NCBI GenBank assembly: GCA_021816695.1 | Contig: JAKAXE010000007.1 | Span: forward strand, 1 to 56,831 | Direction of reading: 5' to 3' | Length of the DNA: 56,831 nt | Source of the DNA: a bacterium | GTDB lineage: Bacteria; Chloroflexota; Dormibacteria; Aeolococcales; Bog-877 | Shown: positions 33,118 through 44,150 of the stretch, piece by piece | Layout of the letters: the number at the start of each line of letters is the position of its first letter | How positions within the stretch are numbered: the stretch's first letter is position 1 | The notes under the pieces: generated by a model | Told to the model about the DNA's origin: nothing | The model's input: the letters and a program-made list of their open reading frames with translations, nothing else | The model's database searches: none | Made by a program: the position numbers and the translations under genes

Positions 33118-34443
33118 TCAGCCATACGCGAGGAGCGCGGCAAACGCTGCCAGGCCCTCGCCCGGATAGGCCCGCACCCTGGGCCACTCCCAGAGCGAAG
33201 CTGAACTCTCCACCCAGGCGAAGCGTCCCACCCAGTTGTCCTCCAGCCCTCCGACATATCCGAGGGACCCCAGCTGGGAGAAGAGCTGAGCCTGGGCAGG
33301 CCCGGCCTGCTCCGGCGAGGCATAGGGCCAGAGCCCGCTGTAGGCGATGAACTGCACGGACTGCCCGGTGATCGACTCCAGCACCTGGGCGCTGTATCCG
33401 GTCAGCTCCTGGATCGTGGCCAGGGACTGGCCCCAGAGGACAGTGCCGTCGTTGTAGGTGTGATCCTGGACCGCAAAGCCCATTTGGGAGAGCGAGCTAA
33501 GCTCGCTCGCGGGCATGTACTCCTCCTCGCCGTTCTTGATGCCGATCAGGCCGCTGCAGGGAAAGAAGGTGGCGGTGAGGCCGTCTGCCTCCAGCACCGG
33601 GAGGGCGTACTGATACTCGTTGGCGAAGCCATCGTCGAAGGTGATCGCCACCGGATGATCCGGCAGCGGCAGGCCGTAGAGGAGGAAGTCGGCCAGCCGG
33701 TAGAGCGAGATCGCCTGGTAGCCGTTGGACACCAGATACTGCATCTCGGCGGAGAACTGATCTGGCGGCACCGTGAGCCCGTAGTCAAGGTCGTAGCTGT
33801 ACTGGCTGGAGTACATGGCGCGGTCCGGGAAGGGGCCCACCAGGTGGTACATGAGGATGGGCACCGAGGCGGTCCTGGGAACGATCACTGCCGGTGTGAT
33901 CACCGGTGCTTCCATAGCCGCAGGCCCCTCTCCGACAACCAGATAGGTGCTGGATGCCGGAGAGGAGGATGGCCCTTCCAGGAACAACTTGGTGTGCTGG
34001 TACAGGCCAGCCACGCCTGGGGGAGACAGGCTTGGAGGGTCGGCGAAGGCGACAGCGACCGGGACCTCGGTGGCATTGGCCACCTGAACTCTGGGATTCT
34101 CCGGGCTGGCCCACTCGGCCCCAGCCTCCGGCCGACCGACCGCGAAGGCGACCACACGGGCTGCCTCGGAGAACTTGGCGGCCAGCATCGCGGAGCGAGC
34201 CGCCTCGGATGGCCAGCTCGCTTGCTCCAGCGGGTCTAGAAGCGGCCATTGTAGGTTGAAGTTCCCCTCGACCATGTCCTGCAGGAAGGCCTCGGCCACG
34301 GAGATGGCGGAGGTGGCAGGGGAGGGTGACGACTCCGGGGCACGGGCATGGCGTGGCGCGCCACCGTGGATGCCGCAACCCCCCAGGGCTAGGGACGCGA
34401 CCAAGGCGAGCACCGGGAAGACTCGTCCACTGCCCATGCTCAT
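33118..34443 (-). CDS. NodB-like polysaccharide deacetylase lipoprotein (possibly altered active site)
   Basis: A 441-residue exported protein with lipobox LALGGC (Cys near 23). Residues ~45-185 form an N-terminal region of unknown fold. Residues ~190-430 form a NodB domain: VPILMYHLVG, PDQFSAEMQYLVSNGYQAISL, and the catalytic/metal motif AITFDDGF. The metal-binding HxxxH motif appears as DHTYND, so the second histidine is aspartate, and the usual RxPYG motif is reduced to SGLWPYA. Such proteins deacetylate cell-wall or exopolysaccharide N-acetyl groups; this one may be inactive or altered. A GGGGGGGAG tract precedes the ATG. Confidence 0.8.
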   Translation of the reverse strand: MSMGSGRVFPVLALVASLALGGCGIHGGAPRHARAPESSPSPATSAISVAEAFLQDMVEGNFNLQWPLLDPLEQASWPSEAARSAMLAAKFSEAARVVAFAVGRPEAGAEWASPENPRVQVANATEVPVAVAFADPPSLSPPGVAGLYQHTKLFLEGPSSSPASSTYLVVGEGPAAMEAPVITPAVIVPRTASVPILMYHLVGPFPDRAMYSSQYSYDLDYGLTVPPDQFSAEMQYLVSNGYQAISLYRLADFLLYGLPLPDHPVAITFDDGFANEYQYALPVLEADGLTATFFPCSGLIGIKNGEEEYMPASELSSLSQMGFAVQDHTYNDGTVLWGQSLATIQELTGYSAQVLESITGQSVQFIAYSGLWPYASPEQAGPAQAQLFSQLGSLGYVGGLEDNWVGRFAWVESSASLWEWPRVRAYPGEGLAAFAALLAYG

Positions 34444-34976
34444 AGCTCCCCCCCTGGTCCGCGAACTATTGTGGCAGAGTGGGGCGGACTTTCCTGGCTC
34501 TTCCAGCCGGCTCCGTCGGTCTCGCGGTTTCCTTCCGGCCGGGAGTCCACGCGGTGGTGCCCACCCCGGCCTGGGCGGTGATGGAAGCCTTCATCTGCCA
34601 AGTGCTCTCCTGGGTCGGGCCACTGACGTCTTGATGGCACGACCAGTTCCCCTTCCCAGAGTACATTTCTGCAGCTTCACCTTCCGCGATCATCAACCTC
34701 TATGAAAGGTCGCGGCGGGAAGGGCAGTGGCTGAGGCGCAAGATCCGGGCCAGCAAGTGGTGGAGTGCGGTGCTCCGGCTTCACATGCACACTCCCGACA
34801 AAGGCATGCCGTCGCTGAATTACCGTTCGCGGCGCGGATGCGATGTCTTCCACGCCGGTCCTGGATTTAGGGGCCGCGGAATCCCTCTGGCCAGCTCAAG
34901 GGGAAACCTCGTTGCTGCGAAGCGGCCCGGCTGCGGAGGGGCGGCCGTCCGGACCGCCCCTCCCGTTCACCGCGCC
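34444..34976. other. 533-bp gene-poor region
   Basis: No coding region is supported; the short open frames on both strands show no family features, and base composition is more A/T-rich than the neighbours. On the minus strand near its left edge, the ACAATA tract and GGGGGGGAG could be the promoter and ribosome-binding site of the deacetylase-like gene. A strong hairpin lies near the right edge. Confidence 0.4.
34935..34963 (-). terminator. GC-rich hairpin downstream of the secreted beta-solenoid gene
   Basis: A perfect 10-bp stem (GGAGGGGCGG / CCGCCCCTCC) with a 9-nt loop begins 14 nt beyond the stop of the minus-strand gene ending at 34977. Its place suggests a transcription terminator, but no run of T follows on that strand, so a pure intrinsic terminator is uncertain. 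Confidence 0.4.
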
Positions 34977-35798
34977 CTAGTCCGAATCTCGGTCCGTGCT
35001 ACGGGGTACCACCGTCGAGATGTCCGATGGGCTGCATTCGCCCAGAGCCCGACCGTGAACGGTGTTAGGGACCCCGACAGGCGTTCCTGTCGACAGGTCG
35101 TTGGGGTGGACGGCCGGACTATTGTCAAAGCAAACCAAGTTCCCACCCACGGAGTTGGCCATCACCTCGTTGCCATCAGGATCACCCATCTGGTTGCGGA
35201 TGTCGATGAGGTTTCCACCGACCATGTTTCGGAGAGCGCCCATCCAGCAGGTCCGGATCCCTATGATGCGCAGGTCGCCCCCGATCACCGCGCCCTCGCT
35301 GTCGAAGAATAGGCCCTTCCCACACTCGCTCAAGCCGGCTCCCCCGTGGACCATACTGACGTCACCTTTGACGGTCACCGAGTGGATCACAACCGCGAAT
35401 GCACCTACCGCGATGATGCTTCCCCCCACCCGATCGATCTCGACTGTCGTCCCGGGTCCGGAGCACGGTGCCGACGGCCCACATCCGTAGTAGAGGACTC
35501 CCTCGCGGCGCACGAAGACGTTGCCTGTAACGATGAGGGGTCCAGCCAGAGTAGTCGCGTCGAGCAGCGCGCCTGGTTGGATCACCAGATTGCCGTCCAC
35601 CGTCACTGAGCCGGAACTGATGGAGCAGGGACCAGTCACCACCAGTCCATCGTAAGACCCCGGGCTGATATCCCCGCCTGTACAAATCGAGGCGTGATCG
35701 CCGCCGTGATCGTGGCCATCGGCCATGGCCACGCCGGAGCTGGCCAAGATTGCGACGGTGCCCGCGAGCGCCGCCGCCGCCACCTGCCATCGCCGCAT
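34977..35798 (-). CDS. Secreted beta-solenoid-like protein of unknown function
   Basis: A 273-residue exported protein with a Sec signal peptide (MRRWQVAAAALAGTVAILASSGVAMA), then a His/Asp-rich stretch GHDHGGDHA. The rest is built of short Val/Ile/Gly strands of the type GSVTVDGNLVIQPGA, GPLIVTGNVFV, GSIIAVGAFAVVIHSVTVKGDV and GGDLRIIG, suggesting a right-handed beta-solenoid. About eight cysteines may form disulfides. No sorting motif or catalytic motif was seen. The ATG at 35798 has GGGAGGAAAG just upstream on the minus strand; a start ten codons further out is less likely. Possibly a surface or matrix protein. Confidence 0.7.
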   Translation of the reverse strand: MRRWQVAAAALAGTVAILASSGVAMADGHDHGGDHASICTGGDISPGSYDGLVVTGPCSISSGSVTVDGNLVIQPGALLDATTLAGPLIVTGNVFVRREGVLYYGCGPSAPCSGPGTTVEIDRVGGSIIAVGAFAVVIHSVTVKGDVSMVHGGAGLSECGKGLFFDSEGAVIGGDLRIIGIRTCWMGALRNMVGGNLIDIRNQMGDPDGNEVMANSVGGNLVCFDNSPAVHPNDLSTGTPVGVPNTVHGRALGECSPSDISTVVPRSTDRDSD

Positions 35799-35931
35799 CT
35801 CTTTCCTCCCTACATTTCGCCTGCCCACCTGCAGGCCCGATTGCCCATGCGTTCCGCGGCTGCCCGGGGCAGCTTCACTATTGGTTCACTTTGCCTTCAT
35901 CTCCCGATCGAAGCAGAATGCTCCCTTGCCG

Positions 35932-36399
35932 CTACCGCCCTGCGGCCTTGTCACTCCTGCCGGGCTCGTGGTACCGGGCCACGGTGAACGCCATCACCGT
36001 CGGCACGTCGACGGCGAACAGGAACAAGGTGGCCACCAGGATCAGCAACATCGAGCCGCGGGCTCCGTCGCGGATGAAGACGTAGGCCAGCAGCCCGGCG
36101 ATCACCAGGTAGGCCAAGAGGGCCCACCGAGCCACCTGCAGGAATGTGCCATGGGCGAAGTCCGGGATTCGCATCATGAGACCAAGGGCCGCAGCGGTTA
36201 GGACCCCTCCTCCCACCAGCAGCGCCGCCGGGACCAGCAGGGGAACGTTGCCCGGCAGGTGGGCACCGATGTAGACACCTCCCACCAGCATCAGCGCCAG
36301 CGATCCCACGGTCAGCTCCGCCACCGGGGGAACGTGGCGGTTCAGCACGTCCTGGGGATCTCCCGGTCCCTGGACCTTCAAGTCGCCCGCCTCCATCAC
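35932..36399 (-). CDS. Four-helix integral membrane protein, unknown function
   Basis: The 155-residue product has four hydrophobic segments (around 28-47, 50-74, 88-107 and 115-138) with few charged residues between, and a short cytoplasmic tail. No domain is recognised. It overlaps the upstream membrane-protein gene by 4 nt (GTGA), so the two are probably made together and may interact. Confidence 0.6.
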   Translation of the reverse strand: MMEAGDLKVQGPGDPQDVLNRHVPPVAELTVGSLALMLVGGVYIGAHLPGNVPLLVPAALLVGGGVLTAAALGLMMRIPDFAHGTFLQVARWALLAYLVIAGLLAYVFIRDGARGSMLLILVATLFLFAVDVPTVMAFTVARYHEPGRSDKAAGR

Positions 36400-37016
36400 G
36401 TTGCCAGCCGGGTCATGATGACCAGGGTCGCTACCTGCATGGCGCCGGTGATGCCAGCCGTGAAGATGAACCGGCGCATGAGCCTGGCTATCACCTCACC
36501 GTTGGGCCTCGGCTTGCGCATCTCGAAGAGGACCGCGATGTTGGCCGGCTCCAGGATCCCCAGGGCGATCACGGCCATCACCGCCACCACCACCATCGAG
36601 GCCACGACCCAGCCATGGTTGGGGCTGCTGGCCAGTACGTTCCCCAGGTGCAGCGCGAGCTGCCATCCGGCGGCCAGGGTGCAGACCACAGCCGTGGGCA
36701 TGATCAGCACCATCTTGGGCATGAACCGGGCGGTGAACTCGCCCCGAGCGGGGATCGAGAGCCGGCCCAGCGTGGGGCCGAGAACAAAGCCCAGAAACAG
36801 GTCGAGAACGGTCCACACTGCTCCCGCGACGACGTGGAAGAAGTCCAGGGCCCAAAGGGCATTGGCGGCTATCGCCCACACCAAACCGACCAGCACCGCG
36901 CCCACCAAGGGCAAGCCGCGCACCGGCACGATCTTCACCCGCACGGCACTGTCCGGAGATGCGTGCCGTGCTCCCGCGCTGACCTCCGCGAGGGGGGTGG
37001 CGCCAACGTCTGCCAT
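36396..37016 (-). CDS. Membrane protein, DUF2269/CopD-like
   Basis: The 206-residue product has about five hydrophobic segments. The first one in the core, ALWALDFFHVVAGAVWTVLDLFLGFVLGPTL, carries a central His and Trp, resembling membrane proteins of the CopD/DUF2269 type, in which such His may bind heme or copper; this resemblance is weak. A Met-rich stretch (ARFMPKMVLIMPT) lies between helices. GGGGAGGAG precedes the ATG. It forms a two-gene operon with the downstream membrane protein. Confidence 0.6.
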   Translation of the reverse strand: MADVGATPLAEVSAGARHASPDSAVRVKIVPVRGLPLVGAVLVGLVWAIAANALWALDFFHVVAGAVWTVLDLFLGFVLGPTLGRLSIPARGEFTARFMPKMVLIMPTAVVCTLAAGWQLALHLGNVLASSPNHGWVVASMVVVAVMAVIALGILEPANIAVLFEMRKPRPNGEVIARLMRRFIFTAGITGAMQVATLVIMTRLAT

Positions 37017-37173
37017 CGTCTCCTCCCCTGTGATCCAAGCGGCTGCTCAACCGATCAGGCAGCGGAGGATGGCCTCCGGCCGTCAGATCAGAGTGCTGGC
37101 AGGTTACAGGCGGCCTGCATCACGGGCGCATCACCAGCGCGGTGGTTCCCGGTCTGGCTCCTCAGGGCCCTCT

Positions 37174-39951
37174 CTAGGGCGAGCGGAGGGCCTCTATCCG
37201 TTCGAGGATGGTGGCCGACGGACTGAGGCCAGCGCTCCGGGCGACCTGCGCTGCGTTCCGCAGAACCTCGAGGGCGGCCAGCTGCCGCTCGCTCGCGCGG
37301 AGCAGTTCGGCAAGGCGCAGGTGGCGGCGCTCATCCCAGGGATCGTGATCGATGGCCTCCCGCATCCACTCCTCCGCCCGCTCCCTCTCTCCGCGCTGGA
37401 CAGCCCACTCCGAGAGCCGATCCAGGAGCTGCAACCTCTGCGCTCCCAGCCGGGCGCGGGCGGCAATGGCCCACTCGTCGTACACGTCGCCGGGGAGGAA
37501 CTCCCCCCGATACTCTTGAAGGAGTTCGTCTCCTAGACGTGCGGCAGACGGATCCGCTGAGCGCAGTCGGCCGACGACGTCTCGACAGGCCGCCGAGAAC
37601 CGGCGGGAGTCGACTCCCACACTGGGGGCGAAGTCCAGGGTCTCGCCCCTTCGCACTGTGAGGCCGGGAACGGCGCGGTGGAGCCTGGAGAGCACGTTGC
37701 GCAGGCGCCAGCGGCCCACGCGAGGATCGACCCCGGGCCAGACGCTCTCCATCACCGCATCCACGGGGAGGGCGCCCGGGCTCGAAGCCATCAGCTTGAC
37801 CAGCGTCGCGGGCTGGCCCACCAGCTCAACTTCCCTGCCCCCGGCGCGGACGGAGAACCCGCCAAGGGTCCTCACGCTCCGCTCCAAGGAGCACTCGGTC
37901 GCCCTCGGCAGCAGCGGCTCTACTCCCGCGAGGGCAGCGTCCAAGGACTTAGCCCGCCCTTCTTTCAGGAGCCGGTGCGCCTCCGCCTCACCGACATCCG
38001 ACCAGCATTCAGCCATGGCGGCCGCCAGCTGGCTGGCCCACGGCTCGGGCACCGGGGTGCCCAACCGCTCCACCGCCGCTCCCGCGGCTTCCGCTAGGGT
38101 TAGGGCGGAACGGGGATCGCGGGCTCTGAGGGCCGCCGCCAGACCCAGGGCCGCATAGGCGGCGCTCCTCTCATCGCCCAGGTCGAGCAATTCCAGAGCG
38201 GCGCCGGCTAAGTGCTCCGCCGCCTGGTCGAGGTTCCCCTCCAGGGTGGTCACGAGCCCCAGATGGAGGACGGCGATGGCGTGCGCGTGACTGTCACGGA
38301 CGATCGTGCCGGCCCCCAGGGCCAGGTCGAGATGCGAGTGGGCGGCGGCCAGATCACCTCGTGATGCCAGGACCAGGCCCAGCGTGGAGTGGACCATCGC
38401 CGATTGCCCGAGCTCCCCTGCTCGAGCGTGGGCCTCCGCCGCGCGAAGGAGGGTGTCGGTGGCCTCGTCCGCCTCGTTGGCGAAGGCCTGTACCAGGCCC
38501 AGGTGGTGGAGCAACCGGGCCTCCCCTTCCGACCCTGCACGCTGCGCAACCTCCATCGCCTCCTGGAGCGCCGCGCGGGACGACTCGTGGTCGCCCTGAC
38601 GCCAGGCGAGCATTGCGGATCCGTCCAGCAGCCGCCAGCGCAAGCCGGGACCCACTTCGACCATCTTCAGCACCTGTTCGAGCCAGGTCCGGCCCTCGTC
38701 GAGCATCCCGCGCAACTCCCAGTAGCGCCATAGCTCAGCGGCAAGGCCCCCAGCCGTGGAGCTGTCACCCACTTCGATCGCCTCACCCAGGCAGGCCCTC
38801 ACGTTGTCCTCCTCGCGCTCCAGTCGCGCCAGCCAGGCGCGCTGGGCCGGGCCGGTCAGCAGGGATGCCTCGGCACCTTGGACGAGTTCAAGCCCCCATC
38901 GTGCGCGCTTCCGGCGGGCCTGGGAGCACCGCTCCCGGCACCCAGGGATGGATTCCAGCCGTGCGGTGACGGCGGTCTCCACGCGGTAGCGTGCCCCGCT
39001 GCGTCCGGAAGTCGCCGTGATCAGGGATCTGGCCGCAAGATCCTGGAGCACTCCCCTCAAATCCTCGGCGGCGCCACTGCTGTCGGCACCCACCACCAGG
39101 ACGATCTGTTCCAGGTCGAGGCCGACCGGAAACTGTGCCAGACAGGTGAGGACCTCCGCCTCTCTGGGATCCAGGCTTCGCGTGGCGAGCCGGAGCGCTC
39201 GGTCCACCGCGACCCCTTGTGGGTCCTCACCGGAGAGCGCGGCCCGGCCAGAACGGAGAATGGCGCACGCCTCTCCCACCCCCAGCGTCGCTACGGTCGC
39301 ACTGAAGAGCTTCAGTGCCAGCGGCATGCCTCCGAGGTTTCGACATGCCTGGCTCAGAAGGGGTGCGTCCATGTCCGAAACTGAGACCGACAGCTGCCGG
39401 AGGAGCCGCAGGAGCAGATTGCCACTCTCCGACTTCTCGAGCGCGGACAGGGTTGAAGCACCTGTGTCGGGCACGCTCAGGGGCCCCAGTGTCCAGGTCA
39501 CCTCGCCCGAGACGGTCAGAGGACTGTGCGCGGTGACCACGATCCTCGCCGATACCAGGCCAGCTGTGGCCCTGGCGGCAAGGTCGGCGCAAAGGGCGAG
39601 GCAGCGGTCGGCGCCGTCCAGGACGAGGAGTCCCGGATGCCCGTCCAGGAGAGCCTCCAACGTCTCACCCGCCACTCCGCCCCGGATCCCTCGTGCCTGA
39701 CGGATACGGGCGAGCGCGGCGCGCGGGGGCAGGCCGGACAGGTCAACCCAGGTCACCCCGGGATCGGGCTGAACGACCCACCTCATGAGCGCGGTCTTCC
39801 CCACCCCGGGAGGGCCGATGACGGAGACCAATGGAGCCGCCTGAAGAAGCGAGGTGGCAATCGCGCGCTCAGCCTCTCGCCCGACCAGTCCGACCGGAGC
39901 AGGGCCGGACCGGTTAGCTCTCAGGTCGTGCCCGCTGTCGCGAGCGGTCAT
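37174..39951 (-). CDS. Large ATPase-TPR regulator with C-terminal SARP-type DNA-binding and BTAD domains
   Basis: The 925-residue protein has, in order: an AAA/NB-ARC-like ATPase at ~20-330 (LVGREAERAI, Walker A GPPGVGKTALMRW near 46-58, Walker B-like GLLVLDGADR, GGMPLALKLF); a TPR region at ~370-640; a winged helix at ~670-760 (RTLGGFSVRAGGREVELVG..VMESVWPGVDPRVGRWRLRNVLSRLHRAVPG); and a bacterial transcriptional activator domain to the end (RFSAACRDVV..YRGEFLPGDVYDEWA..RLQLLDRLSEWAVQRGERERA). SARP regulators usually have the DNA-binding domain first; here it follows the ATPase and TPRs. It is likely a ligand- or ATP-gated activator, with target unknown. GGAGAGAAGGGAG precedes the ATG. Confidence 0.85.
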   Translation of the reverse strand: MTARDSGHDLRANRSGPAPVGLVGREAERAIATSLLQAAPLVSVIGPPGVGKTALMRWVVQPDPGVTWVDLSGLPPRAALARIRQARGIRGGVAGETLEALLDGHPGLLVLDGADRCLALCADLAARATAGLVSARIVVTAHSPLTVSGEVTWTLGPLSVPDTGASTLSALEKSESGNLLLRLLRQLSVSVSDMDAPLLSQACRNLGGMPLALKLFSATVATLGVGEACAILRSGRAALSGEDPQGVAVDRALRLATRSLDPREAEVLTCLAQFPVGLDLEQIVLVVGADSSGAAEDLRGVLQDLAARSLITATSGRSGARYRVETAVTARLESIPGCRERCSQARRKRARWGLELVQGAEASLLTGPAQRAWLARLEREEDNVRACLGEAIEVGDSSTAGGLAAELWRYWELRGMLDEGRTWLEQVLKMVEVGPGLRWRLLDGSAMLAWRQGDHESSRAALQEAMEVAQRAGSEGEARLLHHLGLVQAFANEADEATDTLLRAAEAHARAGELGQSAMVHSTLGLVLASRGDLAAAHSHLDLALGAGTIVRDSHAHAIAVLHLGLVTTLEGNLDQAAEHLAGAALELLDLGDERSAAYAALGLAAALRARDPRSALTLAEAAGAAVERLGTPVPEPWASQLAAAMAECWSDVGEAEAHRLLKEGRAKSLDAALAGVEPLLPRATECSLERSVRTLGGFSVRAGGREVELVGQPATLVKLMASSPGALPVDAVMESVWPGVDPRVGRWRLRNVLSRLHRAVPGLTVRRGETLDFAPSVGVDSRRFSAACRDVVGRLRSADPSAARLGDELLQEYRGEFLPGDVYDEWAIAARARLGAQRLQLLDRLSEWAVQRGERERAEEWMREAIDHDPWDERRHLRLAELLRASERQLAALEVLRNAAQVARSAGLSPSATILERIEALRSP

Positions 39952-40315
39952 CTCCCTTCTCTCCTGCCGGGAATGCGCCCGATCGATTCACCCAGCGCCA
40001 ATATATGGCGGAGGAACCCGGATTGGGATCCACCGTCTGAGTCGCCTTGGGCAACTGGTGCTTCATAGATGGCTGCAGGGTCCACTCGAGTCCACCACCC
40101 GCTGTCGCAGATGCCGAGGAACCGCCTCACCATTGCTTGCTGCTGGGCGCTCCGGTCTTGGTGGCCTGGACCACCCGCCGCCCGCTCCAGAGTTGGCCGG
40201 TGGGCTCCGATGAGGATTCCGTCTTTCGTGGCATGATGGCCGGGAGTCCAGCCGCGAGCACCATTACGAGGGCTCATCCTGAGCCTGGAGTGGGCTCCAT
40301 TCTGGGAGGCCATGG
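39952..40315. other. Divergent intergenic region between the SARP regulator and the tandem paralogues
   Basis: No gene is supported in these 364 bp. It must hold promoters for both flanking units. An A/T-rich CCAATATATGG at 39998-40008 stands out in the high-GC background and could be a -10 element or a binding site for the neighbouring regulator. A minus-strand open frame covering most of the region lacks a recognisable domain and overlaps the regulator start. Confidence 0.4.
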
Positions 40316-40900
40316 GTGTTGTGCTTCGACGAGGAGAATCTGCCGATCCCCGTGCCGCCACCTACGAGAGGCATCCGTCCGCCCTGGGCGGGACCACCTT
40401 CGAATGTCCTTCCGGCTCCGTTCGGCGCGCTCCTGCTCCAGGCGCGATCGGAGATGGCGGTCCTAGCTGTCTACGGTGCCCACGCCTGCGCGGAAGGCTT
40501 CGGCGTCGAGGTGCTCGCCAAGTGGCAACAGTCAACCCAGCCAGAGCCGGTCAGGCAGGGCCCCCACTTCGCTTCGCGGGGCGGTCCGAACGCACTCCGG
40601 TTCGTGATCCGCTTCGCGGATGGACGTGAAGCCATTGCTGACAATCGTCCGGGCCATCCGGCGGATCCGGGCCGCCAGCTTCCCCGCATCAGCTTCCGGA
40701 GCGGTCAGGGCTCGGACTCCGAATGGGAACATCGCATGTGGGTGTGGCCGTTGCCGCCACCGGGGCCGCTGACCATTCTTTGTGAGTGGCCAGCCATGGC
40801 CATACCCGAAACCACGGCCGTGTTGGACGCTAGCGTCATTTTGGACGCCGCCGCCGGGGCCGCCACCCTCTGGACCAGCGGTGGCGACTCTCCCCCATGA
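40316..40900 (+). CDS. Uncharacterised protein with WPLPPPG motif, tandem paralogue A
   Basis: This 194-residue protein is of unknown function. Its centre and C-terminus share a pattern with the next gene: WAGPPxNV, LRFVIRFADGREA, an acidic/Ser-Gly loop, MWVWPLPPPGPLTILCEWPAMAIPE, and LDASVILDAAAGAATLW. From memory, similar proteins with this (W)xWPLPPPGxL signature occur widely in Actinobacteria as hypothetical proteins. No signal peptide or membrane segment is seen. The GTG start has GGGAGG ~7 nt upstream. It overlaps paralogue B by 4 nt, so the two are co-expressed. Confidence 0.75.
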   Translation: MLCFDEENLPIPVPPPTRGIRPPWAGPPSNVLPAPFGALLLQARSEMAVLAVYGAHACAEGFGVEVLAKWQQSTQPEPVRQGPHFASRGGPNALRFVIRFADGREAIADNRPGHPADPGRQLPRISFRSGQGSDSEWEHRMWVWPLPPPGPLTILCEWPAMAIPETTAVLDASVILDAAAGAATLWTSGGDSPP

Positions 40901-41553
40901 TGGGCACCGAGGGAGGGCCACCGTCGGAGCCGGAGTGGGCGGGACCTCCGGAAAATGTGATACCAGGTGCAATTCCGTTGGAGTTGCTGTTGGCGGCTTC
41001 TGCGAGAGCGGCTGTGGCGCTGCGTGGCCGAGCCGCGTATCCCAATGGCTTCGAGTTCGACCTCGTCGCCCGCTGCAGGGCTGCGATCGCCGGCGAGTTG
41101 CCGAGCCCAAGCCCGTTCCTTCTCGCCGGAGAGCACGAGTTCGTTCACGGAAGGCTCTCACCGCGTTTCCTCAGATTCGGTTTGGAGTTTCCCGACGGCC
41201 GGAAGGTCACCAACCTTCCACGTTCCGCACCCGGGACCGGCGCGGATCCTGGCGCTGGGCCGATTCTCTCGGGTCGAGATGGCTCGGCAAGTAACTTCGC
41301 CTGGCAGCAGACGTACTGGGTCTGGCCGCTGCCTCCTCCCGGCACGCTGAAGTTCGCGTGTGCCTGGCCGGCCTTCGACATCCCCGAGTCCATCGTGTCG
41401 GTCGACAGCAGCCTTGTAATCGCCGCCGCCAGTCGCTGCGCGGTGATTTGGCCCTCCGAGGAACTGCCTCCTGGGCTGGCACGCGGGGGGGCCTCGTGGT
41501 CCGGCACCCGAGCTTACGCCCCCGAACAAGCGGCCCAGGAGGGGCAAGATTAG
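40897..41553 (+). CDS. Uncharacterised protein with WPLPPPG motif, tandem paralogue B
   Basis: This 218-residue product is homologous to the preceding one: WAGPPENVIPGAIPLELLL, GFEFDLVARC, LRFGLEFPDGRKVTN, YWVWPLPPPGTLKFACAWPAFDIPE and VDSSLVIAAASRCAVIWPSEELPPGL line up with paralogue A, with some loops longer. It is better conserved toward the family pattern I recall (AYPNGFEF is intact here but lost in A). Function is unknown. The ATG overlaps the first gene's stop (ATGA). A gene-poor stretch and an insertion sequence follow. Confidence 0.8.
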   Translation: MMGTEGGPPSEPEWAGPPENVIPGAIPLELLLAASARAAVALRGRAAYPNGFEFDLVARCRAAIAGELPSPSPFLLAGEHEFVHGRLSPRFLRFGLEFPDGRKVTNLPRSAPGTGADPGAGPILSGRDGSASNFAWQQTYWVWPLPPPGTLKFACAWPAFDIPESIVSVDSSLVIAAASRCAVIWPSEELPPGLARGGASWSGTRAYAPEQAAQEGQD

Positions 41554-42084
41554 CGTCAGTCCAAGGAACGCCGAGGATCCCTCGAGCCGTCGCAGGTCGA
41601 TCTCAGCGGAGCCACCTTTGCCGTGGCGGGGGACCCACATTGGGCGGGCGTACAGGGGGCCTCGCGAGGGGAGTCACTTCGATGGCTACGCCATCCTCAC
41701 TCGCACTTTATGAGCCCGATGGCTCTCGGAATCGCCGCTGACCACGCCATGCACCTGGGGGGCTGGAGGCCGATGATGGGGGTGTAGGGATCCGGTACGG
41801 GCGGTCACCTTCCTTCCTCGCCCTGTCGCCCGGGGACCAGCGGCCCACGCGCTGGGAAGAGCTGCAGCACTGGCGGCCTGACGTGGGGGACCATGCGGGA
41901 ACCGAGCACGGGCCGGCCGGAGGCGCCCAGGATGCCGCAGAGGGAGTCCGCACGGTGGCGCCGTCTCCTCTCACGGAAGCGACGATGTTGACGGTGACAC
42001 TTCTACCCTTCAAGGGCGATGTGCCTACCTACGGCTTCCAGGTTCCGATTCCTGGTCCCACACCATGGTGGGTGGCACTAGCCA
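41554..42084. other. Gene-poor region before the IS element
   Basis: No confident gene. One plus-strand frame from 41883 runs into the IS target site and, if the IS is removed, would end nine codons later; it has no recognisable domain. The last ~30 bases hold inverted repeats (CACCATGGTG and the hairpin GGTGGC-ACTA-GCCACC at 42071-42086), so the IS landed at the foot of a hairpin. Confidence 0.4.
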
Positions 42085-42092
42085 CCGTGACC
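42085..42092. repeat. Target-site duplication of the IS, left copy
   Basis: CCGTGACC directly flanks the left inverted repeat and is repeated exactly at 43478-43485. An 8-bp duplication is typical of IS256-family insertion. Confidence 0.88.
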
Positions 42093-42118
42093 AGTCAAGT
42101 CCCCTCGTGTGGTGGAAA
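42093..42118 (+). repeat. Left terminal inverted repeat of the IS
   Basis: It begins AGTCAAGTCCCCT and continues with GTGTGGTGGAAA; 20 of 26 positions match the reverse complement of the right end. Confidence 0.82.
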
Positions 42119-42145
42119 TCTGGGAGAGGGACTGGGGGTTGGCCA

Positions 42146-43369
42146 TCAGGCCACCAGCCCGGCGGTGAGGGGATTGGTGAGGAGGTCCTGGCCGTCGGCT
42201 GAGAGCTGAGCCAGGGAAGCCTGGGAAAAGTGGCGCTTGCCGTCCTGCCACTCGTCGTGCTGCTCTTGGAGAACGGCCGTGGCCAGTCGCAGCAGCGATG
42301 CGGGGTTGGGGAAGATCCCCACCACCTTGGCCCGGCGATCCACCTCGGCGTTCACCCGCTCAATGGCGTTGGTGGAACTGATGGAGCTGTGGTGCTCCCT
42401 GGGAAAGCTCAGGTAGGCCAGGATGTCCTCCTCGGCCTCGCGCAGCATCTTGGCCGCCTTGGGTACCGTGGGCTCGAGCCGCTCCAGCACCTGGACCATG
42501 GCGGCTCGAGCGGCCTCCCTGGTGGGCTGAGCGTAGATGGTCCTCACCAGGGCCAGCACCGCCGGCGCCTCGTGCCGGGGCAAGGCGGTTACCAGGTCCC
42601 GCAGGAAGTGGACCCGGCACCGCTGCCAGCTGGCCCCGGGGAAGCACTGGGCCAGCGCCTGCTTCAGCCCCACGTGGGCGTCGGAGACCACTAACTGCAC
42701 CCCTTTGAGCCCCCGGGCCAGTAGGGAGCGGCAGAACTCCAGCCAGAACTGCTGGCTCTCGCTGGAGCCAACATCCACCCCCAGGACGCACTTCTCGCCA
42801 CTCTCCCGCACCCCCACCGCGATCACCACCGCCTGGCTGACAATCCTCGCCCCCAGCCGCACCTTCTCGTAGGTGGCGTCGAACCAGATGTACGGGTACC
42901 GGGCATCGTCCAGCGGCCGCTCCCGGAACTCCGCCAGCTCCCGGTCCAGCTCCTGGCAGATCCGGCTCACCTCGCTCTTGGACACCTGGCAGCCCCCCAT
43001 GGCCGCCACCAGGTCGTCCACCTTGCGGGTGGACACCCCGTGCACGTAGGCCTCCTGGATCACCGCCCATAGCGCCCTCTCGATCCGCCGCCGCGGCTCC
43101 AACAGGCTGGGCAGGAAGCTCCCCTGGCGCAGCTTGGGGATCTCCAGCTGCAGCCTTCCCACCCGGGTGTCCAGCGTCCTGGGCCGGTGGCCGTTGCGGT
43201 AGGTGAGCCGCTCCTCGGTCCTTTCATGGCGGCCGGCCCCGATCACCGCAGTCACCTCCGCCTCCACCAGAGCCTGGACCGTCCGCTCCAGGATCACCCT
43301 CAGGGCATCCTGATCCCGATCTCCCAGCTCCACGAGCAGGTCGTCCAGTGGCATGCTTGCACGGGTCAT
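42146..43369 (-). CDS. IS256-family transposase
   Basis: The 407-residue transposase has the Mutator/IS256 layout: an N-terminal region with RNGHRPRTLDTRVGRLQLEIPKLRQGSF, an HGVSTRKVDDLVAAMG motif, and the DDE catalytic residues in WFDATYEKVR (D), VVSDAHVGLKQAL (D) and SSTNAIERVNAEVDRRAKVVGIFPN (E). WQRCRVHFLRDLV carries the family's C/H signature. The ATG at 43369 follows GGAGGACACG on the minus strand; a start 12 codons upstream is possible. The reading frame is intact, so it may be active. Confidence 0.96.
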   Translation of the reverse strand: MTRASMPLDDLLVELGDRDQDALRVILERTVQALVEAEVTAVIGAGRHERTEERLTYRNGHRPRTLDTRVGRLQLEIPKLRQGSFLPSLLEPRRRIERALWAVIQEAYVHGVSTRKVDDLVAAMGGCQVSKSEVSRICQELDRELAEFRERPLDDARYPYIWFDATYEKVRLGARIVSQAVVIAVGVRESGEKCVLGVDVGSSESQQFWLEFCRSLLARGLKGVQLVVSDAHVGLKQALAQCFPGASWQRCRVHFLRDLVTALPRHEAPAVLALVRTIYAQPTREAARAAMVQVLERLEPTVPKAAKMLREAEEDILAYLSFPREHHSSISSTNAIERVNAEVDRRAKVVGIFPNPASLLRLATAVLQEQHDEWQDGKRHFSQASLAQLSADGQDLLTNPLTAGLVA

Positions 43370-43451
43370 CGTGTCCTCCTGGTCTGTGCAAAGGGTCGTT
43401 GGCACGGTGGCCCACCTCAGCCCCTCCTCAGGCTCCAGGTGGGTCCCGCTT

Positions 43452-43477
43452 TTTACACCACCATAGGGGACGTGACC
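43452..43477 (-). repeat. Right terminal inverted repeat of the IS
   Basis: Read inward on the minus strand it starts GGTCACGTCCCCT and continues GGTGGTGTAAA, matching the left end at 20 of 26 positions. Confidence 0.82.
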
Positions 43478-43485
43478 CCGTGACC
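43478..43485. repeat. Target-site duplication of the IS, right copy
   Basis: CCGTGACC, identical to 42085-42092. A second partial GTGACC copy overlaps the IS end at 43472-43477, so the exact boundary could shift by a few bases. Confidence 0.85.
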
Positions 43486-44067
43486 GATAGAGAGGAATTA
43501 GAGCCGGCGTAGGCCGGCAGGCGAGCGATGGCCCGGCCAGTGGCGTTTTGGAAGGGCCCTGGTCCGCATTGAGACCATCTTTCCGCTGCGGCTCTCATCT
43601 CCACGGGTTCAGCCTTGCCGGTGGGTCTCGGCGCGAGTGTCGGTGGTCGCCAAGACCGGAGCTCGGCGCGAGCCGTCTGCCGTTGGCGACATTGTCGAAG
43701 GCCGGAGCCTCCGCTCGTCGCCGCTGGCATCGGCCGCAGCTTCACCTCCAGCGTCGAAGCCACCGTGTAGCGAGAGGCTCGCGGAGCACCGGGCAGTACC
43801 GCGCCGGCGGTCTAACCGGCAGTTCGACCAGCCCGGTGGCTGCCATGGCACCTGTACCCGCGGCCCGTATCGCGCTCGAGGGAAGGATTGGGGTCCGACG
43901 GCTGCCCGGCGCCCGGCGCGAAGGGCCGGCCGCTCCGCCTGGCCTGGTATCCGACACCGTTAAATCTCGAGGGAGCTCCACGGGTTGCCGTCACGGTTGC
44001 CTTCAGGGTCCCTGAGTGGAGTCGAATCGAAGCGGCGCCGGGGCTGCCGTCGAGATCCAACCCGGGC
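43486..44067. other. Gene-poor region between the IS and tRNA-Leu
   Basis: No gene is supported. Open frames here on both strands are Arg/Pro/Ser-rich without family features. Just right of the IS is a perfect hairpin GCCGGC-GTAG-GCCGGC (about 43503-43518). Minus-strand sequence next to the tRNA would be its 3' trailer; no encoded CCA was seen. Confidence 0.4.
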
Positions 44068-44150
44068 TGCCGGGGATGGGACTCGAACCCATACGGACTT
44101 GCGTCCGGCGGTTTTTAAGACCGCTGCGGCTGCCATTACGCCACCCCGGC
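44068..44150 (-). tRNA. tRNA-Leu (anticodon UAA)
   Basis: Read on the minus strand, the 83-nt sequence folds as a class II tRNA: acceptor GCCGGGG/CCCCGGC with discriminator A; a D arm containing GG in its loop; anticodon stem GCGGT/ACCGC with loop CTTAAAA, so anticodon TAA; a long variable arm (GGAC-GCAA-GTCC) diagnostic of Leu/Ser/Tyr; and a T arm ATGGG-TTCGAGT-CCCAT. Discriminator A and the UAA anticodon identify leucine. CCA is not encoded, so it must be added post-transcriptionally. It reads UUA/UUG codons, which should be rare in this GC-rich genome. Confidence 0.95.

Follow-up and report, generated by a model that had tools for sequence, protein, structure and literature searches.

Two overlapping genes, here called A and B, are best explained as an old pair of tandem paralogues that small tRNA-associated elements carry between genomes as a single unit of cargo, and whose products act as non-enzymatic cytosolic binding proteins, a reading that we hold with somewhat better than even confidence. 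The pair was analysed in its window, i.e., the whole stretch of 56,831 nucleotides in which it lies. Since the same pair is found inside small mobile DNA of related bacteria, it is probably travelling cargo. With the pair as the first cargo behind an integrase, and a matching site that does not hold the element, we arrive at a defined unit, which turns a hypothetical protein into a candidate accessory trait. The family to which both proteins belong is scattered over Actinomycetota and Dormibacterota, carries a strikingly invariant motif, and has no model in the four family libraries searched.

The genes and their motifs are located as follows.

40316..40900, plus strand: gene A, 194 aa, WPLPPPG-family protein, GTG start
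40897..41553, plus strand: gene B, 218 aa, ATG start, paralogue of A that lacks the FF-type tail at the N-terminus
40739..40765, plus strand: WVWPLPPPG in gene A, residues 142-150, from sequence and conservation
41317..41343, plus strand: WVWPLPPPG in gene B, residues 141-149, from sequence and conservation

The initial annotation described two overlapping, related genes with a set of shared motifs, and this description holds in full: genes and motifs are present where they had been placed, the junction is a 4-base overlap (ATGA), A and B are identical at 70 of 178 positions (39%; BLASTP, E 7e-29), and the W-x-WPLPPPG core is kept in both. We infer the GTG start of gene A from an N-terminal tail that is common to its relatives, which reads VLCFDEENLP in the window and VSFFDEEHLP in the A copies of loci L020 and L021 (tail variants VLCFDEE and VSFFDEE, respectively). 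Whether the frames are coding had also been raised, and several observations agree that they are. G+C by codon position is coding-like (0.71/0.59/0.74 for A, counted from 40376, and 0.67/0.60/0.72 for B), homologues in two other genomes keep both frames in the same order, and, where L020 and L021 mismatch, about half of the differences are in the third position of a codon. In addition, a simple Nei-Gojobori estimate among the three complete pairs gives dN/dS values of 0.27-0.39 for gene A and 0.17-0.28 for gene B; this range of 0.17-0.39 shows that purifying selection acts on both genes. No further copy of A or B was found in the window's own genome (G000).

A and B belong to an uncharacterised, mostly actinobacterial family, in line with the similar hypothetical proteins of Actinobacteria mentioned in the initial annotation. 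The family was found at 74 loci of the genome collection, in Actinomycetota, Dormibacterota, MAGs labelled Chloroflexi and unlabelled MAGs. The W-x-WPLPPPG hypothetical proteins, mainly from Actinomycetota, are the same family as A and B: the profile matches both proteins over the domain, with the invariant G, W and P residues kept in each. No named model matched. Specifically, A and B hit 0 families in Pfam and NCBIfam up to E 1 and 0 in PADLOC up to E 0.1, while the 74 family rows gave one chance-level match in Pfam (E 0.034) and had no match in PHROGs (threshold E 0.001) or NCBIfam (threshold E 0.01); the literature searched yielded no mention of the WPLPPPG motif. The alignment behind these comparisons (A2) holds 72 of 80 trimmed matches plus A and B, i.e., 74 rows, with L055, L062 (twice), L043, L087, L065, L079 and L082 left out as short, broken or redundant; a second alignment (A4), built for the gene A model, holds 66 of the 74 rows. 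In B numbering, the invariant columns among the 74 aligned sequences are G51, W141, P144, P146, G149 and W157, and D100, G101, W143, L145 and P147 are near-invariant. A short M-x-FF N-terminal tail occurs in 52 of 73 members, compared with 3.8% of shuffled segments, in a count on stop-to-stop frames from which three truncated rows were removed and in which the window's A (VLCF) and three B proteins were scored as misses. The FF-type tail is absent from B in all three complete pairs.

Most family members are single genes in varied surroundings. Carrier genomes have one to three copies (15 genomes, profile search), and tandem copies are clear at 4 of the 74 loci (L020, L021, L038 and L046) and doubtful at 2 (L062 and L064); the triple copies of L046 cluster together in the tree, and the two copies of L038 are placed in different subclades. 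Three genomes and one deletion remnant account for the co-inherited A-B pair as it is known here. In the tree, A and B form separate clades (support 100/100 and 100/99), and in both clades the window's copy lies outside the L020 and L021 copies (support of the inner fork 99/76 in the A clade, 99/97 in the B clade). Because there are two separate clades with the same branching in each, the A/B duplication predates the split of the pairs, and the shared inner order indicates that A and B were inherited and moved together, which speaks indirectly for a functional pair. Genes around the family were predicted with our own caller, which uses G+C by codon position, and the scan covered 135 of the 146 direct neighbours, the other eleven being too long, redundant or part of L043. 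No conserved neighbourhood emerged, as no Pfam family was matched by more than 4 of the 135; the neighbours that do recur (a two-component system, 6PGD, PRPP synthase and an NAD-binding membrane protein) mostly reflect Microbacterium synteny.

Such a distribution could also be expected of immunity- or antitoxin-like proteins, i.e., scattered small beta-sandwich proteins of the cytosol that neutralise a competitor's toxin, with orphan copies on islands and plasmids. The presence of the family is indeed patchy: members were detected in 10 of 400 genomes from the phylum of the window and in 10 of 61 close relatives (own genome included in both counts), and in 11 of 396 actinobacterial genomes (centre included), a count that may be low since at most 8 candidates were scored per genome. 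These absences are bounded by completeness where the genomes are MAGs, as are all carriers of the A-B comparison. The occasional tandem copies and the four plasmid records that carry the family fit the same picture, and in Rhizocola hellebori (L023) an RHS/pretoxin-HINT protein (L023:7574-12520) is encoded about 1 kb away from a family member. However, this is the one locus with a toxin-like neighbour, on the opposite strand, in a toxin search that covered part of the loci; moreover, 0 of 74 members match a Pfam immunity family, PADLOC holds no model for A or B, and the dN/dS values given above amount to moderate diversification. We therefore regard an immunity function as unlikely. A phage origin can be dismissed, given that no relatives were found in viral contigs (45 pattern matches, none confirmed), phages or PHROGs.

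The reading of A-B as travelling cargo draws on two relatives in which the pair occurs in the same order: G376 (L021), of the window's genus, and G405 (L020), of another genus of the family. In both genomes, a tyrosine recombinase lies directly upstream of the pair (PF00589 in both, E 5e-22 for L020), a tRNA-Thr(CGT) lies upstream of this integrase, and the last 47 bases of the tRNA recur as identical direct repeats (L096 7564-7610 and 15006-15052; L094 14305-14259 and 3575-3529). The att copies are 7,442 bp apart in G376 and about 10.7 kb apart in G405, and a third copy, slightly diverged, follows further on. The G376 element thus delimited is ~7.4 kb long, and A-B is its first cargo behind the integrase. 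DNA identity between the two islands is 84-92% over 5.4 kb; further cargo includes a retropepsin-like aspartyl protease domain (PF13650, L021:9933-10433), and a gene that resembles a transposase by eye is found in the G376 island and absent from the G405 island. Among the few cargo genes scanned there were no replication or conjugation genes, and a PADLOC scan of the island cargo returned nothing.

The window's own genome has, on these alignments, a tRNA-Thr site without the element. The left flank of this tRNA-Thr (G000, C71) is 92% identical to that of G376, and the tRNA runs straight into the G376 right-junction sequence (85.7% over 196 bp), followed by ~1.5 kb found only in G000 and then by 4.8 kb at 88.5%. 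At the corresponding tRNA-Thr site of G135 (left flank 92%), a related integrase (59%) stands with other genes. The G376/G405 element resembles Islander-type tRNA-integrated islands as outlined in PMC4383910: it has an integrase by the tRNA and a shifted repeat of the tRNA 3' end at its other boundary, and in related genomes the same site lacks the element or holds other genes. It differs from them in its small size (the 7,442 bp between att copies), in the lack of replication and conjugation genes among the few cargo genes scanned, and in having the unnamed A-B pair as first cargo; our literature search on Dormibacterota islands returned only general island work.

Sequence identities point in the same direction. 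The backbone of G376 is 89-94% identical in DNA to that of the window, whereas the G376 pair is only 68% identical to the window pair and about 86% identical to the G405 pair, a closer G376-G405 relation with which the A and B clades agree. Since the backbone is at 89-94% but the pair at 68%, the window and G376 pairs are not simply vertical copies of each other. We propose that the A-B pair would travel as one unit inside tRNA-associated elements. The initial annotation had asked whether the family occurs next to mobile elements elsewhere, and in part it does: the integrases of L020 and L021 are direct neighbours, yet they are the only two among the 135 neighbours scanned, and further integrases were found at distances of 2.5 kb (L041) and 3.6 kb (L185). 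Because integrase neighbours are few and most members are single genes, mobility is shown for the A-B pair and not for the family.

Two further observations concern these tRNA-Thr sites. The site in G135 (L183, G135:C3:137000-151000) is occupied by a different element, in which genes beside the integrase resemble, by eye, those of a small DNA-binding protein, a large primase/helicase-like protein and a ParB-like protein. A second segment between tRNA-Thr att copies (L096:15006-19127 and L198, in G000:C71) is 88.5% identical between G376 and G000, and in G376 it encodes a Kelch-like protein.

In the window, the pair occupies a different site, beside a tRNA-Leu gene.

34314..44067: variable, mosaic segment whose content differs among same-genus genomes
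36396..37016, minus strand: 206-aa protein, membrane-like by eye, no Pfam match, adjoining the regulator here and in G386
37174..39951, minus strand: 925-aa AAA/TPR/BTAD (SARP-like) regulator, divergent from the pair
39952..44067: part of the segment with the pair and the insertion sequence (IS), matched only by G135 (L043) among the same-family stretches compared
42093..43477: IS256/Mutator-type insertion sequence with an 8-bp target duplication on both sides
44068..44150, minus strand: conserved tRNA-Leu(TAA) that bounds the variable segment on the right

The backbone, which is near-identical in genomes of the same genus, ends at ~34.29-34.31 kb (G143, G151 and G376) and resumes at ~43.98-44.07 kb, at tRNA-Leu(TAA); in G119, about 0.2 kb separate this tRNA from the end of the backbone. 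The content between backbone and tRNA-Leu differs in G143, G376, G119 and G348 and is shared by G135, in which the segment from the regulator to the tRNA matches and a deletion has removed the whole of A and B up to its middle. More diverged versions of the pieces at 35.1-35.5 and 35.97-36.94 kb occur in G151, G336 and G386; a 283-aa protein (34980-35828) has relatives in these three genomes and in G376, and the membrane-type protein (36396-37016) has relatives in the same three at 80-83%. Since pieces of it recur in relatives, the window segment is not a single clean insert. A search of the segment for integrase homologues gave nothing better than E 1, and a search for repeats of the tRNA-Leu end gave only short chance matches within the window, which spans the whole contig, so that a distant end could be missed. 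In this respect the window differs from Islander-type islands. No integrase or att repeat was found in the window, and integration there may have occurred, as the variability of the segment suggests. In G143, about 8.2 kb of other genes lie beside tRNA-Leu(TAA) (stretch in L145).

The IS that had been noticed beside the pair was confirmed and assigned to the IS256/Mutator type. Its transposase lies at 42146-43405 on the minus strand, and the 8-bp target duplication, CCGTGACC, is found at 42085-42092 and 43478-43485. At the sister locus L043, the 8-mer occurs once and the IS is missing, so the IS is an insertion that this locus does not share. More telling than the IS is the tRNA-Thr integrase element of other genomes, which could not be seen from the window's sequence.

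The state of the locus in G135 raises the question of whether A and B are decaying cargo, without host function and being lost. The deletion there, with a B remnant whose dN/dS is 0.65 over 96 codons, the IS inserted just downstream of the pair and the low prevalence of the family would all be compatible with decay. Against this, the frames are open, dN/dS among the three complete pairs is in the range given above, and all invariant residues are kept in A and B. Altogether, we consider decay very unlikely.

As to what this cargo might do, structure prediction for each protein, a check proposed in the initial annotation, gave a beta-sandwich for both. The AlphaFold2 models have mean pLDDT values of 83.7 for B (core blocks 91-98) and 87.6 for A, whose first thirty residues are of fair to good confidence (block means 79, 89 and 93). 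Both models are beta proteins and place the WPLPPPG stretch between two adjacent strands, and each protein is predicted to form one beta-sandwich with an Ig-like arrangement, as read from confidence values and secondary structure rather than from coordinates. A second structural comparison placed 3FBQ, the BAS1627 anti-sigma ectodomain, at the top for both models (114 residues, rmsd 2.8 and 3.0, Z 9.2 and 9.6), followed by other sandwich domains at Z <=7.4. The identity to 3FBQ is 10-11%, and this structure, as outlined in PMC6066255, is an extracellular domain, whereas neither a signal peptide nor a membrane segment was seen by eye in A or B. Sandwich folds of such a kind are common and Z values of 9.2 and 9.6 are modest, so that these matches probably reflect a common fold and not family membership. 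Foldseek found nothing at E <= 0.001 for either model, with Helicobacter CrdA ranked first (E 1.2e-3 and 3.2e-3), and no viral structure in BFVD matched at E <= 0.001. A profile search of PDB sequences gave FlK thioesterase (E 0.3) and MecA (E 1.1) at best, both taken as chance.

Since the strictly invariant residues are only Gly, Trp and Pro, we infer a binding rather than a catalytic role, perhaps within a two-subunit complex. The conserved pattern is thus likely to be a structural or binding element and not an active site. The W-x-WPLPPPG turn, together with the other invariant Trp and Gly residues, may form a conserved core or surface, and A and B would be cytosolic, non-enzymatic binding proteins, a role suggested by the predicted fold and the lack of conserved catalytic residues. 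The N-terminal tail of A, predicted to be ordered, and the lack of such a tail in B would suit a two-subunit complex with distinct roles for its members. An enzyme was rejected given that the family has no invariant residue of catalytic type. Metal binding was likewise rejected: the copper protein CrdA was the top Foldseek hit for both models and the P19/FetP copper proteins reached Z <6 in the second comparison, yet the family has no invariant His, Met or Cys.

The best functional lead is Clp_N, the only named domain found fused to the family. It stands in front of the WPLPPPG domain at L090:5503-6558 (E 9e-13), L080:5443-6552 (E 1e-5) and L093:5317-6480 (E 1e-4), in Dormibacterota-related and Acidimicrobiales members. 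These fusions would fit an adaptor or sensor of Clp proteolysis, in which the domain binds a target and, via the fused Clp_N, links it to ClpC or senses a ClpC-directed compound. A precedent is mycobacterial ClpC2, outlined in PMC10030653 as a sensor and sponge for a ClpC1-directed antibiotic. However, the resemblance to ClpC2-type proteins is confined to a few distant members, as Clp_N was found in just 3 of the 12 long-frame members scanned, all three on long tree branches; A and B do not carry it, and the MecA match mentioned above is at chance level. As an account of A and B, a Clp adaptor thus seems highly improbable. A second family copy in an Actinopolymorpha genome (L169:1129-2064) has an N-terminal extension without a Pfam match.

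A more specific form of the binding-protein reading can be put forward, one that we judge decidedly unlikely to be right as it stands. In this form, A and B would be a two-subunit machine spread as a unit by mobile elements, in which the FF-type tail of A would fit a matching empty groove of the tail-less B and the W-x-WPLPPPG surface would capture a specific peptide or protein. If this were true, the pair would represent a new class of mobile binding complex, serving, e.g., competition, defence or the control of proteolysis, and the Clp_N-fused relatives would be a single-chain route to proteolysis.

The initial annotation had proposed that the pair may form a heterodimer controlled by the neighbouring regulator, so that the AAA/TPR/BTAD protein would sense a signal and switch on A-B as one local system. 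The regulator itself was identified correctly as a 925-residue ATPase-TPR-SARP protein divergent from the pair, with BTAD (E 3e-10) and TPR_12 above and AAA_16 below the cut-offs; PADLOC gave it weak matches only (best E 7e-4, ten proteins of the segment and islands scanned). The regulator and A are arranged head-to-head with 364 bases between the genes, and G000 has both regulator and pair at this locus, as does G135, where the pair is truncated. The proposed control is not supported at the other loci, however. A BLASTP comparison of the regulator with the genes around the 74 family loci returned L043, which is the same locus in the sister genome, and a weak match in L032 (28% over 417 aa) that is separated from the family gene by about 2.8 kb; no other independent family locus examined has an adjacent homologue. 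Conversely, G386 has a 49% regulator homologue beside an 82% homologue of the membrane protein; the 14 kb examined there hold neither A nor B, and the genome as a whole (a MAG about 85% complete) gave no match to the family. G336, also a MAG about 85% complete, has a regulator homologue (48%) and no family match, and G135 keeps its regulator intact (94%) although A is lost entirely and B in its first half. In addition, a promoter and terminator scan of 39900-42150 found nothing, including no sigma-70-like promoter by consensus, which is a weak test. We conclude that regulatory control of the pair has a very slim probability, and we take the regulator to be an older neighbour at this spot.

The regulator and the membrane-type gene keep the same order in another genus of the family (window 36396-39951 and L205:3817-7440) and are possibly paired in G336, where a contig break falls between them; these two genes are a candidate two-gene system.
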